Shown one piece after another: positions 1,223-46,292 of a stretch of DNA of 64,000 nucleotides; within the stretch, counting starts at the first letter, position 1, and every line of letters begins with the position of its first letter. This stretch comes from Xanthobacteraceae bacterium. Lineage in GTDB: Bacteria; Pseudomonadota; Alphaproteobacteria; Rhizobiales; Xanthobacteraceae. The stretch covers positions 186,001 through 250,000 of the forward strand of contig JAHBZB010000003.1 in assembly GCA_019635635.1 (NCBI GenBank), in the 5' to 3' direction. The position numbers were made by a program, and so were the translations under genes. The notes beneath the pieces were generated by a model that saw only the letters and a list, made by a program, of their open reading frames with translations, did not search any database and was not told the origin of the DNA.

Positions 1223-2617
1223 GTGGCGATACCTCCCGCATTTCAGGTCCGGCTCGGGCTCTACGGCTTCGCCAACGAGAGCGAGACCGAACGCGCGTTG
1301 CGTGCCGAAATCTGGACGCTGATGAAGCCCTGGGTCGGCAAGACCATCGACCGCATGATCGATAGTGCGGAGAATATCACCCCCCTTTACGCCAAGACGC
1401 TCGACCGGCATCGCGAGGACATCAAGCGGTTCGCGGTCGATGCGATGGAGCGAAGCTGCACCCGGCCGTTCGACGAGGCCTGGGTCGCCGACGCCTACGA
1501 CCGCGCACGCTTCGAGATCGGCATCACGCTCGACATGCGTGCGCGCGGGACCATTCTTCGCGCATTGATGAGCAGCTTCTTTCTGGTGATCGGGAAGAAA
1601 TATTTCTACTCGGGCCGCAAGGCCGCGGCGCTCGGTGACGTGATGATGCGGCTCAGCCTGCTCGACAACGCGAACGCCGTGGTCTGCCATAACGAACTGG
1701 CGGTGAATGACAGCAAGGTGCGCAGCGATCGGTTAGGCGAGGCGATTTCGCGCTTCGGCGTCACCATGAACGAGGTTAGAAACGCGATCGCGGATACGGT
1801 CAGCGAGTTCGGCGCGACGTCGCAGCGGCTCTCCAGTCTGGCGCAGGATTCGAACCAGCAGGCGGGACTTGCCAGCAGCGTCGCCGAAAACAGCGCGATG
1901 AACGCGAACAATATGGCGAGTGCCGCGGAAGAGCTGTCGAGCGCGATCGGCGAGATTCGCGCGCAATCTGCGCGCAGTGCGAAGATGGCGATGGAGGCCG
2001 TCGGGCTCGCCAATCGCGCGAACGGCATCGTGGAATCGCTTTCGGAATCCGTCGAGAAGGTCGGCTCGGTCGTCGGGCTGATCTCGCAAATCGCGTCACA
2101 GACCAACCTGCTTGCGTTGAACGCGACGATCGAAGCCGCGCGTGCCGGCGAAGCGGGCAGGGGCTTTGCGGTGGTCGCAAACGAAGTGAAGCAGCTCTCG
2201 ACACAGACCTCGCGGGCGACCGAGGAGATCAGCCAGCAGATCGCGAAGATTCAGGGAGCGACCCGGCTCTCCGTGGAGCAGATCGCGGGATGCGGCGACA
2301 GCATCGGCAAGATCGCTGAGACGGTCGAAGCGCTTTCCAGTTCGGTCGATCAGCAGGCGGATGCAACGTCGAGCATTGCGCAGAATACCGGGCACTCGTC
2401 CGATCAGGCCAACACGGTCGCGGAAGCGATGCAAAGGGTCGCAAGCTCGGTCGCAAAGACCGAGAACGAGGCGCGCTCGGCGTTCGAACTGGCGGCGGGT
2501 CTCAACCAAAGGGCCGCTGAACTGAACTCCGCGGTGGAAGCGCTGCTCGAGGTGGCGAAAGCGGATTCCGATGGCGTGAAGCCCTTCGCCGATGTCGGTA
2601 GACGAGCTTCGGCCTGA
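1223..2617 (+). CDS. Soluble methyl-accepting chemotaxis protein with globin-like sensor
   Basis: 464-residue signalling protein with no transmembrane segment, so predicted cytoplasmic. Residues 1-160 are helical and resemble the protoglobin sensor of globin-coupled receptors (HemAT type), including the [12 protein letters not shown] stretch at 98-109 that matches the IGLxPxWYxG region. The proximal haem His expected three residues before IG appears to be Arg96, so haem binding is doubtful. Residues 185-440 are the MCP coiled-coil hairpin, with the conserved tip at about 288-335 ([20 protein letters not shown]) that binds CheA and CheW. Start is GTG at 1223, matching the beginning of the sensor fold. 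No chemotaxis genes adjoin it. MCP identity is certain; the globin assignment is an inference from pattern. Confidence 0.88.
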
Positions 2618-41621: not shown

Positions 41622-42134
41622 ATGAAGAACGTAGCGCGCGCGGCGCAAGCCGCAGAGACGCTTGAATCATACGAGGAGCTGAAGACGCCGTATCTCGAGG
41701 CGTTGACGCTGGTGGAACGGCTGCACCGCCGCCTGCTCGACGTGATCAAGGACGAATTCGATCGTCGCGGCACCTCGGACATCAACAGCGTGCAGGCGCT
41801 CTTGCTGTTCAACATCGGCGGCAGCGAATTGACGGCCGGAGAGCTGCGCACGCGCGGCTATTATCTCGGCTCGAACGTTTCCTACAACCTCAAGAAGCTC
41901 GTCGAGATGGGCTATCTGCATCACCAGCGTTCGCGGGTCGACCGCCGCTCGGTGCGCATCAGCCTCACCGAGAAGGGCAAAGAGGTGCACGACATCGTCG
42001 AGAACCTCTACCAGAAGCACGTTCGCACGCTGGAGAAGGTCGGCGGCATCGGCTCGCAGGATCTTCAGACGCTCAACAAGGCGCTGCAGCGTCTCGAGCG
42101 CTTCTGGACCGACCAGATTCTCTATCGCCTGTAA
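41622..42134 (+). CDS. ldtR: MarR-family regulator, LdtR type
   Basis: 170 residues, winged helix: RTRGYYLGSNVSYNLKKLVEMGYLHHQRSRVDRRSVRISLTEKG has the recognition helix and wing, and the long terminal helices form the dimer. Matches LdtR, which in Rhizobiales controls L,D-transpeptidase and stress genes. No transpeptidase gene is adjacent. The 160-base upstream gap holds a TTGTGTACAA-like dyad near 41555. A terminator follows the gene. Confidence 0.9.
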   Translation: MKNVARAAQAAETLESYEELKTPYLEALTLVERLHRRLLDVIKDEFDRRGTSDINSVQALLLFNIGGSELTAGELRTRGYYLGSNVSYNLKKLVEMGYLHHQRSRVDRRSVRISLTEKGKEVHDIVENLYQKHVRTLEKVGGIGSQDLQTLNKALQRLERFWTDQILYRL

Positions 42135-42160: not shown

Positions 42161-42189
42161 AGCCCCGGCGAAACGCCGGGGCTTTTTTT
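42161..42189. terminator. Bidirectional terminator between ldtR and the receptor fusion
   Basis: Stem AGCCCCGGCG/CGCCGGGGCT (42161-42170, 42174-42183) with AAA loop and T6 downstream on the + strand. The opposing gene ends at 42188, so it may serve both directions. Confidence 0.88.
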
Positions 42190-44536
42190 ATGCGGCCGCG
42201 TCCTTTGCGCTTGCGCCGCGCAGCCACGGACTCCACGGCTCCGGCGGCAATACGTCGCTGGAAATCCAGACCGGCTGGATCATCCCGTGCCTGTCGATGC
42301 GGCCGATCGCGGCGGGTTTGTGCAGATGGTGGTTCTCGCGATCCATCAAAACGCGGAAGCCGCTCGGTGCATCCAGCGTGAGGCCATTGAGTGCTTCGCG
42401 CACCTTGTTCGGATCGACGGTGCCGGCCTGCTCGACGGCCGCCGCCCAGAGGTTGAACCCGATCCAGGTCGCTTCCATCGGATCGTTCGCGACCGCTTTC
42501 GGATCGCGAGAGAAATCGCGCCACGCGGAAATGAAATCGCGATTGGTGCGTGAGTCCATCTCGTGGAGATAATTCCACGCGACATAGTGGCCGGTCATGT
42601 TGGCGCGGGGCAGCGCCGGCAATTCGGCTTCGCCAATCGAGAGGGAGAGCACGGGCAAGACTTCCGCTGTGAGGCCTGCGCGCGCGAACTCGCGGTAGAA
42701 ATGCACGTTGGAGTCGCCCGAAAGCGTGGAGATCACCGCGGACTCGCCGCCGGCGGCGAAACGGCGAAGATCGGCGACCGTATTCTTCCAGTCGGTCTGG
42801 CCGAATGGCGCGAAGACTTCCTGCACGTCTTCGCCGGAGATTCCGGCCTGCGCGAGATAGCCGCGAATGATCGCGTTGGTCGTGCGCGGGTAGATGTAGT
42901 CGGTGCCGAGCAGGAAGAACTTCCGCCGGTGCATGCGCCGCAGATAGTCGATCGCGGGCAGGGCTTGCTGGCGCGGCGTGCCGCCGGTGTAGAAAATATT
43001 CGGCGACTGTTCTTCGCCTTCATACTGGCTCGGATAAAACAGAATGCCGTTCGCCCATTCGACGATGGGCAGCACCTGCTTGCGCGAGGCGGAGGTCCAG
43101 CAGCCGAAGATCGCCGCGACCTTGTGATCGGTAAGCATCGCGCGCGCCTGCTCGGCGTAGAGTTTCCAGTCGGAGCGCGGGTTCATGATGACCGCTTCGA
43201 CCGGGCGCCCCAAGAGGCCGCCGCGCTCGTTCAACTGTTCGATCAGCATGACGAGCAGCGATTGCAGCGGGCGTTCGCTCGCGGTCATGGTGCCGGACAG
43301 CGAATGCAGAATGCCGACCTTGATCGCGCCGCTATCGAGGTTCGCGAAATAGCGCTCGACCGCGTCCAGCATCCATTGCGAGCGGTCGATCAAGTCGTTC
43401 GCGGTCGTGAGCACGGACTCGCCGGCATCCTCGACCTGAGACACGGCGGAAGAAATTTCCGGCAATGCGCCGCCGACGCCGCCTGCCACGAGCGCGGCAC
43501 GGTCGGAGATATGGCGCAGCTCCTCGGCCTGATGATCGAGGCTTGCCGTCATCACGCGGCTGGTCTGGCTCATGGCGCCGACGCTTCCGGAGACCGCGTT
43601 GATCGCGCTCACGGTGTCTTCGACGGCTTTTTGAATATCGTTGATCTGGGCGTCGATATTACCGGTCGCTTTTGCAGTCTGCGCGGCCAGCGCTTTCACT
43701 TCGCTCGCGACGACGGAGAAGCCTTTGCCGGCGTCGCCCGCGCGGGACGCCTCGATATGCGCGTTCAGCGCAAGCAGCGAAGTCTTGTCGGCGATCGCCT
43801 GAATGGATTTGACGACCTCGTCGATTTCGAGCGCTGCCGCCGAGAGGCTGCGCACGATGCGGTCGGTGCGTTCGAGATTGGAGATCGTCTCGTCGGTCGC
43901 ATTTTGCGCGGCGGAAATCTGGACGGAAGAGTCGTCGAGCAGCTTCAGGAGCTTGTTCGCGGAAGCGGCGACCGCTTCGGAGTCGCGCGCGGCGGAAGTG
44001 GCGGTCGCGGACGCGTCCGACACCTGCGCGCGCATGCGGACGTTACGCGCGGCAAGTTCGTTCGCGGTGACGCGGATTTCCTCTCCTGCGGCCGCGAAGG
44101 TCGTCAGCACTTCGTCGATCGCGGAGCGGAATTTCCTGGTGAAGAACACGCGGCCGGCATGGCGGAGGCGGGCTTCGTCCTGCTGCGAGCGCTGGTCGGC
44201 GGCGAGCGCGTCGGAATCGAGCAGGGTCTTTCGCATCGCTTCGGCGGCGGCGGCGAGCTTCTCGAACGTCGGGCTGTCGGAAGACGCAGGCAACTCCGCA
44301 AAGCGGTCGCCCTCGGAGATGCGCGCGATCGCGTCGGTGAGCGAGCCGTATTTGCGGTCTACGAGCCAGGCGCCGAGGAAGGCGAGCAAGCCCGCAGCGG
44401 CAAGGCCCGGCACGATGCCGAAATAAAGCGTCGCGTATCCGGTCAGCGCGGAAGCGAGGAACACCGGCAGCGCGATGCGCAGCGTGGGCAGCTTCAGGAC
44501 AGGCAATCTCGTGCCGGTAGGGTCCGGCATCAGCAT
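42188..44536 (-). CDS. Fusion: membrane MCP signalling domain + UrtA/AmiC-type ligand-binding domain
   Basis: 782 residues. Two close helices (about 20-38 and 41-59) anchor it with almost no periplasmic loop. A HAMP-like stretch (60-110), then an MCP coiled coil with the conserved tip at about 245-290 ([20 protein letters not shown]). After residue 400 comes a full periplasmic-binding-protein domain (about 405-765) close to UrtA/Fmd[62 protein letters not shown]. By topology both signalling and binding domains are cytoplasmic, as in the amide sensor AmiC. Ligand predicted to be urea or a short amide. ATG codons at 44536 and 44530 are both possible starts. Confidence 0.88.
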
Positions 44537-44709
44537 TCTCCGGCGAATCTGGTGGAATCAATTCTGTCCGATAAGACGTGCGAGTGCGGATTCGGTGAAG
44601 CCCATATTTTGAGCGTAACGCCAATGGTTTAGGCCCTGTGCCGGGTATCGCTTGCGGATGGTCGGCGCGCGCCGCATGGTGCTCGTGCAGCGACTCGGGG
44701 CTCACCAGC

Positions 44710-44904
44710 ATGCCCAGCAAGGGCGAAGGCGAAGTCATCGTGGAAATGCGCCCGGTCGGGAGCGTCGTGCGGGTAGCCGCCGTTGACGTTGCGACCGGCA
44801 CCGAGGTCGTGGTCATGGGCCCAGCCAGCGCCAGCCCGCAGAGCCTAGAACAGGTCGCGATCGCCAAGCTCCGGCGCAAGCTCGCAATGGATAGGGGCAG
44901 CTAA
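44710..44904 (+). CDS. Small protein, DUF6898-like
   Basis: 64 residues, starting [26 protein letters not shown]; a beta-rich fold ending in a helix [15 protein letters not shown]. The [15 protein letters not shown] motif recalls an alphaproteobacterial family of unknown function (DUF6898, from memory). ATG at 44710 starts the conserved part; weak site before it. It lies 80 bases before glyA and is divergent from the receptor gene. Confidence 0.6.
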
Positions 44905-44984
44905 GCGCCGCTCATGCTTCATTTTGGGGGTCGGCTATGTTAGGCCGAAACCCGTTTTCAACCTTGTCTGGCCAGGAGGCCGAA

Positions 44985-46292
44985 ATGCCCGCGACCGATC
45001 CGATGGCGGATCGCAACGATGCGAACCGCTTTTTCACCGCCACGCTCGAACAGAGCGATCCCGAAATCTTTGGCGCGGTGAAGGGCGAACTCGGTCGCCA
45101 GCGGCACGAGATCGAGCTGATCGCCTCGGAGAACATCGTCTCCAAGGCCGTGCTGGAAGCGCAGGGCTCGGTGCTGACGAACAAGTATGCCGAAGGCTAT
45201 CCCGGCAAGCGCTATTACGGCGGCTGCGAGTGGGTGGATATCGTCGAGACGCTCGCGATCGAGCGCGCGAAAAAGCTGTTCGGCGCGGCGTTCGCGAACG
45301 TGCAGCCGAACTCGGGCAGTCAGGCGAACCAGGCTGCCTTCATGGCGGTGATGAAGCCAGGCGACACTTTCCTCGGTCTAAACCTGGCCGCAGGCGGACA
45401 CCTCACGCACGGTTCACCGGTCAATATGTCGGGCAAGTGGTTCAAGGCGGTGCCTTACGGCGTGCGGCCTGACGATCACCGTATCGACTATGACGCGGTC
45501 GAGCAGTTAGCTCGGGAAAACCAGCCGAAGATGATCGTCGCTGGTGGCTCTGCCTATCCGCGGCAGATCGATTTCGCGCGCTTCCGCAAGATCGCCGACA
45601 GCGTCGGCGCGGTGTTCATGGTGGACATGGCGCATTTCGCGGGGCTGGTCGCGGGCGGCGCGCATCCGTCGCCGTTCCCGCACGCGCATATCGTGACGGC
45701 AACCACGCACAAGACGCTGCGCGGTCCGCGCGGCGGTCTCGTGCTCACCAACGACGAGGCGCTCGCGAAGAAGATCAATTCGGCGGTGTTCCCCGGATTG
45801 CAGGGCGGTCCGCTGATGCACGTGATCGCGGGCAAGGCGGTCGCGTTCCTCGAGGCGTTGCAGCCCGCCTACAAGCTCTATGCGAAGAACGTGGTCGAGA
45901 ACGCGAAAGCGCTCGCTGAAAATCTCCGCGCGCACGGTTTCGACATCGTTTCCGGCGGCACCGATACCCATGTGATGCTGGTCGATCTGCGTCCGAAGCG
46001 GCTCACCGGAAAGATCTCCGAGAACGCGCTCGGCCGCGCCCATATCACCTGCAACAAGAACGGGATTCCGTTCGACCCCGAGAAGCCCGCGGTGACCTCC
46101 GGTATCCGGCTCGGCAGCCCGGCCTGCACCACGCGCGGCTTCGGCGTGAAGGAATTCCAGCAGGTCGGCGATTACATCGCGGAAGTGCTGAACGTGCTGT
46201 CGCAGAAGGGCGTCGAAGAAGATTCGATGATCGAAGGCGCGGTGCGCGAGAAGGTGACGAAACTGCTCGACCGTTTTCCGATCTATCCGTGA
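44985..46292 (+). CDS. glyA: Serine hydroxymethyltransferase
   Basis: 435 residues. Converts serine and H4folate to glycine and CH2-H4folate, the main source of C1 units. PLP Lys243 in [24 protein letters not shown] with the Asp binding the pyridine N, and [17 protein letters not shown] five bases before ATG 44985 decides the start over upstream in-frame codons. First gene of the block with nrdR and rib genes. Confidence 0.97.

Follow-up and report, generated by a model that had tools for sequence, protein, structure and literature searches.

This locus raises the question of what a chemoreceptor could sense when its ligand-binding domain comes last, after the signalling hairpin, and on which side of the membrane such a domain lies. 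The gene is found in a 64,000-nucleotide stretch of DNA, referred to below as the window, and its features are listed in Table 1. The reading that we prefer, with a probability of about 0.64, is that the protein is anchored in the membrane, faces inward, senses urea or a relative (a small amide or a urea derivative), and signals to CheA. Within this reading, we infer that the receptor joins arrays, what its ligand is, how binding is mechanically coupled to signalling, and whether the response is positive or negative.

Table 1. Features of the receptor gene and its direct neighbours in the window
Feature	Coordinates	Strand	Basis or remark
Whole gene: TM hairpin, linker, MCP signalling hairpin, Peripla_BP_5	42188..44536	-	782 aa; ORF and Pfam
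Residues 13-60, membrane hairpin: two hydrophobic helices, almost loopless, both ends inside	44357..44500	-	Hydropathy
Residues 61-132, linker, HAMP-like at best	44141..44356	-	Pfam on three fusions
Residues 133-400, MCP signalling hairpin, tip at ~251-267	43337..44140	-	Pfam, motif search
Residues 405-770, Peripla_BP_5/UrtA-like ligand domain, straight after the receptor helix	42227..43324	-	Pfam, TIGR03407
Ser606 codon, equivalent to Asn246 of Prochlorococcus UrtA	42719..42721	-	Alignment
MarR-family regulator, convergent neighbour	41622..42134	+	Pfam; also neighbours orthologous loci
glyA (serine hydroxymethyltransferase), divergent neighbour	44937..46292	+	Pfam SHMT, E 2.5e-173; synteny

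The reading frame has exactly the boundaries given in an earlier note on this DNA, which stated no strand; it lies on the minus strand, begins with ATG, and contains no internal stop. Domain searches confirm the order proposed there, with membrane helices, an MCP hairpin, and a complete ligand domain at the end. The Pfam MCPsignal model matches residues 210 to 372 (E value of 4e-24; 85.8 bits versus a cut-off of 34.6), and Peripla_BP_5 matches residues 405 to 770 over positions 1 to 359 of the 363-position profile (E value of 2.6e-134). The proposed relationship to UrtA and AmiC is likewise supported. The NCBIfam UrtA model TIGR03407 is matched in full (positions 1 to 361 of 361) with a score of 457.6 bits, below its cut-off of 492.75. 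Among solved structures, the ligand domain matches 8tg1 (E value of 3.2e-103) and AmiC (E value of 1.5e-49; 174 bits), and its further relatives include the UrtA structures 7s6e, 8hic, and 7s6f.

A frameshift or a chimeric assembly could also fuse two genes in this way. The window shows no sign of either; a frame change does interrupt one distant copy (L056, in the draft genome G306). Against such an artefact, the fusion is intact and in frame in 6 genomes of the genus and in three of another family; these intact orthologues refute the frameshift alternative that the earlier note had raised, and we regard its probability as negligible. The eight genomes of the genus, including that of the window organism, comprise the 6 with the intact fusion, one in which it is split over contig ends, and one 86%-complete genome without a match. 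The five relatives with an intact fusion show 76 to 96% identity, and the five named genus records are metagenome-assembled genomes of Xanthobacteraceae, Rhizobiales, or Hyphomicrobiales. The dN/dS ratios are 0.025 to 0.236 over 15 segment comparisons (5 genomes, 3 segments each) and 0.046 to 0.236 for the ligand domain; judged by these values, both halves of the fusion are under purifying selection.

The search for the same architecture in relatives, which the earlier note had proposed, recovers it in the genus, with conserved neighbours, and also in a second family (f32). The order MarR, receptor, glyA, nrdR, ribD is kept in L039, L040, L041, and L043, the four named loci that are long enough to include all of these neighbours. 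We take the MarR-family neighbour to be LdtR-like and the genes after glyA to be nrdR- and rib-like, names that are read from sequence. Two of these loci contain 0.8 to 1.2 kb of extra DNA between the receptor and the MarR gene (L040, 9889 to 11106; L043, 10326 to 11094). The receptor and glyA, which are divergently transcribed, are separated by 400 bases (44537 to 44936), in which no known RNA element was found at the Rfam gathering threshold.

The earlier note placed the ligand domain in the cytoplasm, and the topology predicted from hydropathy supports this placement. In a 19-residue hydropathy scan, the window protein has two hydrophobic segments, at residues 13 to 31 (peak of 1.62, weak) and 35 to 60 (peak of 2.11), which are separated by a very short gap and flanked by basic residues at positions 10, 15, and 20 and at positions 61 and 62. 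Past residue 65, it has no segment of transmembrane strength (the best 19-residue stretch scores 1.34), and there is no hydrophobic segment near residues 380 to 410, i.e., no export signal precedes the ligand domain. In 10 homologues, no 19-residue stretch beyond residue 65 reaches 1.6, and in 13 fusions (these 10 and those of genomes G362, G485, and G365) no segment of transmembrane strength follows the N-terminal hairpin region. The G362 fusion has a single long hydrophobic stretch at residues 71 to 121, and those of G485 and G365 have no segment of transmembrane strength by hydropathy; in the latter two, the membrane anchor may be weak or missing. Since no transmembrane segment follows the hairpin, the signalling hairpin and the ligand domain are predicted to lie on the same side of the membrane, and if the MCP hairpin is to reach CheA, that side must be the cytoplasm. 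The ligand domain, too, should be cytoplasmic.

The regions that connect the domains are less distinctive. Pfam HAMP matches only one of three fusions (L010; E value of 0.00067 and 20.4 bits, below the 25-bit cut-off) and does not match the window protein. The AlphaFold2 model, built from the window protein and four close relatives, is a poor one (pLDDT of 43.7, pTM of 0.28). With this low confidence, it has helices at residues 17 to 32 and 41 to 63, a receptor helix that runs to about residue 398, and a ligand domain whose first strand starts at about residue 405, suggesting that there is almost no linker between the receptor and the ligand domain.

The ligand domains of the fusions also differ from stand-alone ones in composition. 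The K/(K+R) ratio is 0.18 to 0.43 in the fusions (mean of 0.33, n = 15) versus 0.31 to 0.86 in stand-alone domains (mean of 0.74, n = 61), and in the Azospirillum pair described below it is 0.40 in the fusion versus 0.76 in its neighbour. AmiC has 2 lysines and 35 arginines. This arginine-rich shift is suggestive and would support the inward-facing reading. As a marker of location, the ratio was rejected: in a control within the organism's own genome, it did not separate predicted cytoplasmic (56) from exported (12) genes (P = 0.17), under a sorting rule that misfiled the organism's own UrtA as cytoplasmic.

Full-length fusions are found in at least 3 of 297 genomes of the order (G000, G233, and G213), at least 4 of 385 of the class (G000, G362, G485, and G365), and at least 2 of 398 of the phylum (G000 and G365); the three samples overlap, and the counts are lower bounds, with two to three candidates scored per genome. 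In f32, 4 of 30 genomes carry the fusion, three in an intact form and one with a frame change. Outside Alphaproteobacteria, there is no full-length fusion among the matches listed. On plasmids, the query is covered to 80% or more in at least three Azospirillum records and to 76% in a fourth. In quick trees of the ligand domain, including one of 76 rows, the non-Azospirillum fusions form one clade beside UrtA (SH-aLRT of 100 and 99), and the ligand domain of the Azospirillum fusion groups with the binding protein encoded next to it in the operon (100). A single clade for all fusions is rejected for this domain (AU test, P = 5.4e-27, 10 fusions, with long branches involved), so that the architecture seems to have originated on at least two occasions. 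In the tree of the MCP half, one clade (100) unites the fusions of the window genus, f32, and G362, and those of G485 and G365, which have long branches, could not be placed. For this half, one clade of the 12 non-Azospirillum fusions is not rejected (P = 0.27), nor is one that includes Azospirillum (P = 0.28), and thus the MCP half alone fails to show two origins. Two further candidates with long upstream frames (L084 and L089) were rejected as fusions; by eye, they are ordinary UrtA proteins with an N-terminal signal-like stretch.

The Azospirillum fusion (NZ_CP032346 and relatives) combines the same TM hairpin, MCP, and C-terminal Peripla_BP_5 domains and differs from the window protein in its independent origin, retained methylation motifs, and formamidase neighbour. 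On the A. brasilense plasmid (L059), the gene order is FmdD/UrtA-like binding protein, B, C, D, E, fusion, formamidase, and a GntR-type gene, and A. argentinense and Azospirillum sp. TSH58 share it. Pfam identified the first binding protein and the formamidase (FmdA_AmdA, E value of 1.4e-186); the remaining genes are named from their sequences. The location of the fusion between a Urt-like set and a formamidase ties the architecture to small-amide metabolism, and formamide or some other small amide is the natural candidate for its ligand. The region from 388 to 10839 of L059 is probably an island for formamide uptake, sensing, and use. The ligand domain of this fusion shares 74.7% identity (271 of 363 residues) with the neighbouring binding protein, and its whole linker matches the N terminus of that neighbour better than 1,000 of 1,000 shuffled sequences. 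A Tat-signal remnant in the linker was considered and rejected: the signal-peptide part alone is matched by 329 of 1,000 shuffles, so the shared piece that is shown is the mature N-terminal segment only.

The ligand pocket can be compared with that of Prochlorococcus UrtA, for which the available text of the structural report describes nine residues around urea, hydrogen bonds to urea from Ser122, Gln144, Tyr190, and Asn246, no binding by a Trp120 mutant, and reduced or abolished binding upon mutation of Asn246 (PMC10392092). By alignment, the pocket of the window protein consists of W480, S482, Y501, Q504, E506, Y547, Y549, S606, and S633. Eight of these nine positions are the same as in alphaproteobacterial UrtA, among them the Phe192 position, which is Tyr in the window protein and in all alphaproteobacterial UrtA sequences compared; the exception is Ser606, which replaces Asn246. 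N610 was rejected as the equivalent of the urea-binding Asn, as the chain numbering of 8HIC leads to S606. The residue opposite Ser606 is Asn in 60 of 60 stand-alone UrtA-type domains (57 and three from the genus), all nine pocket residues are kept in the 57 other stand-alone UrtA domains, and Ser is found in all seven genus fusions. AmiC has Tyr, Pro, Val, and Thr at four of the positions. The window protein contains both UrtA motifs named in the earlier note, [11 protein letters not shown] and [11 protein letters not shown]. It does not keep the full urea pocket. With Ser606 at the Asn246 position, urea is a likely ligand, though not a secured one.

The urt genes of the window organism lie on a different contig, with none beside the receptor. 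That cluster encodes UrtA, two permeases, two ATPases, UreD, and UreAB (Pfam), with urease alpha adjoining. Its urtD gene, the first of the two ATPase genes (L060, 2801 to 3580), is interrupted in frame by a stop at position 167 of about 249 codons, and the gene is open for 248 to 249 codons in G300, G299, and G301. Either the UrtABCDE transporter of this strain may be impaired or the base may be a sequencing error; the stop makes imported urea a weaker source of signal here and leaves the sensor reading itself unaffected. Matches to urease alpha are strong in five of ten genomes (G000, G300, G301, G362, and G485) and weak, at the level of amidohydrolases, in the other five (G299, G233, G213, G316, and G365). 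In G299 (L178), UrtA to UrtE are matched, UreD and UreAB are not matched within 13.5 kb, and urease alpha is weak.

The signalling hairpin is unusual in two respects. Its tip, [17 protein letters not shown], is identical in all six genus fusions compared and differs at four positions from the tips of the six other MCPs of the same genome, which read QT[NH]LLALNA[TS]IEAARAG. The methylation consensus has no match in the window protein or in the 5 other genus fusions tested. It is found at least once in five of the six other MCPs of the organism, and its absence from one ordinary MCP means that this absence is no bar to MCP membership. Among the other fusions, those of G233, G365, and Azospirillum contain the consensus, and those of G316, G213, G485, and G362 do not. 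Judged from these sequence features, array membership or adaptation may be changed in the window protein. The genome encodes 7 MCP matches, FliG, flagellin, and a single CheA with the Hpt-dimer-ATPase-CheW-CheW-REC architecture (Pfam); its three CheW-domain matches fall in two genes, cheA and cheW. The che cluster (L108, 6611 to 12917) encodes CheA, CheW, a receiver-only CheY-like protein, CheB, and CheR (Pfam) and is preceded by a gene for a ChpT-like histidine phosphotransferase.

It is possible, at somewhat worse than even odds, that the receptor faces inward and has lost urea sensing, with a pocket that has drifted to another small amide, a urea derivative, or some other metabolite. The Asn-to-Ser replacement in the genus points in this direction, as does the replacement of Tyr190 by Thr or Ser in four f32 fusions and in that of G365. 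UrtA was detected in none of the five genomes with a Thr/Ser fusion (for G365, two candidates were scored) versus 7 of the 9 with a Tyr-keeping fusion, where none was found in the incomplete G297 and G302; the tally excludes Azospirillum, whose pocket pattern differs. As the pocket changes are few and related, the link between the loss of Tyr190 and the absence of UrtA is a lead. The eight retained positions in the window protein argue against such drift, as do the full nine-residue stand-alone pattern in the G362 and G485 fusions, the urease of the window organism, and the ability of Ser to donate or accept a hydrogen bond. It is improbable, in turn, that the ligand domain has become a relic or docking platform without a ligand and that the receptor instead senses the membrane state or scaffolds the array: the absent methylation motif, the altered tip, and the pocket substitutions would fit this view, but the dN/dS ratios of the ligand domain, the retention of most pocket residues, and the independent recurrence of the same domain order in Azospirillum do not. 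Apart from these comparisons, a UrtA-type match and no match to the fusion are found in two f32 genomes (G305 and G322).

The output, as distinct from the input, might not be motility, in which case the receptor would feed a Che pathway of some other function. In f32, CheW-domain genes are found in all three genomes examined (G233, G213, and G316), FliG in none of the three, and flagellin in none of five genomes tested; G233 and G316 have 2 MCP matches each and G213 has 3, two of which are adjacent pieces, which makes the fusion one of roughly two MCPs per genome. CheA in f32 was examined by Pfam in G233, whose che cluster (L109, 6979 to 14324) lies between a chpT-like gene and a gene for a ctrA-like response regulator, names that we presume to apply. 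For the window organism, this alternative is unlikely: FliG is found in 4 of 4 and flagellin in 2 of 2 genomes tested among the organism and its genus, and the flagellar genes, together with 7 MCPs that share one CheA, make chemotaxis the simplest output. The earlier note had suggested a connection to CheA or to a non-chemotactic kinase. The CheA route fits the single CheA and CheW of this genome, and the non-chemotactic one finds no support here and is plausible in the f32 genomes tested. A cheAWYBR cluster after a chpT-like gene is seen in both G233 and the window organism.

Under the preferred reading of an inward-facing sensor of urea or a relative, the two N-terminal helices would anchor the receptor in the inner membrane, with no sensor in the periplasm, and the signalling hairpin would extend into the cytoplasm. 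At the base of the dimer, close to the membrane, the return helix of this hairpin would lead directly into the UrtA-derived Venus-flytrap domain. The flytrap might close on urea, a small amide, or a urea derivative, either imported or made inside the cell. Closure would strain the return helix and shift the base of the four-helix bundle, altering the activity of the single CheA and thereby coupling movement to the internal urea-nitrogen state of the cell. Adaptation may be weak in a receptor that lacks the methylation motif; such behaviour would fit the reporting of a level and not of a gradient.

Several known systems resemble parts of this design. AmiC of Pseudomonas aeruginosa, a sensor of the same fold, works in the cytoplasm as the stand-alone partner of an antiterminator. 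No AmiR-type antiterminator adjoins the receptor gene, whose direct neighbours are the MarR-type gene and glyA. The likeness to UrtA of UrtABCDE systems extends to the full-length TIGR03407 match and the eight of nine pocket positions; in contrast to UrtA, the window protein lacks a signal peptide, is fused to an MCP, has Ser for Asn246, scores below the model cut-off, and has no transporter operon. The urea sensor of Helicobacter pylori is a different domain and faces the periplasm. Urea chemotaxis in that organism is known, as far as the available text of two reports goes (PMC5245789, PMC9535007). Chemoreceptors with C-terminal ligand-binding domains are described, in the part of a review that was available, as a recognised and poorly characterised subfamily with at least 17 types of such domains (PMC7390727). 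Members of this subfamily such as the CZB receptors place the sensor after the signalling hairpin, as does the window protein, whose sensor is a large transporter-derived periplasmic-binding-protein fold combined with a TM hairpin. A survey table, as available, contains one chemoreceptor cluster with Peripla_BP_5, of one sequence (PMC8547431), and the available text of another study states that Pfam models of solute-binding proteins also match sensor domains and cytosolic proteins (PMC9602780). The architecture is thus not wholly new in kind, with C-terminal-sensor chemoreceptors and a Peripla_BP_5 cluster already on record. Among the matches listed from the openly licensed PMC literature, no title or abstract describes this receptor.

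Solute-binding proteins are normally defined by their work outside the cytoplasm. Here, such a protein has apparently been brought into the cell interior on at least two independent occasions and attached where a receptor helix ends, which would reverse the direction of sensing; an inward-facing chemoreceptor of this kind seems to be a rare design. If ligand binding is confirmed, it would provide a clean case of an internal nutrient pool that controls Che output. The transporter protein from which the sensor came would serve as a ready comparison, alongside a set of sequences where pocket changes accompany the absence of the urea transporter. A broader and speculative view, which we consider rather unlikely as a whole, is that inward-looking nitrogen receptors have been made repeatedly by the capture of transporter binding proteins, with the export signal dropped and the pocket retuned to an internal level or a new ligand; the window lineage would have dispensed with methylation adaptation, and the lineage in which flagella were undetected would have been rewired to a Che pathway on the chpT/ctrA side with a non-swimming output.

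Elsewhere in the window, an Rfam scan of the whole stretch detected tRNA alone. A second MCP gene (1223 to 2617, plus strand) has an ORF of 464 aa, with methylation motifs and an ordinary tip.
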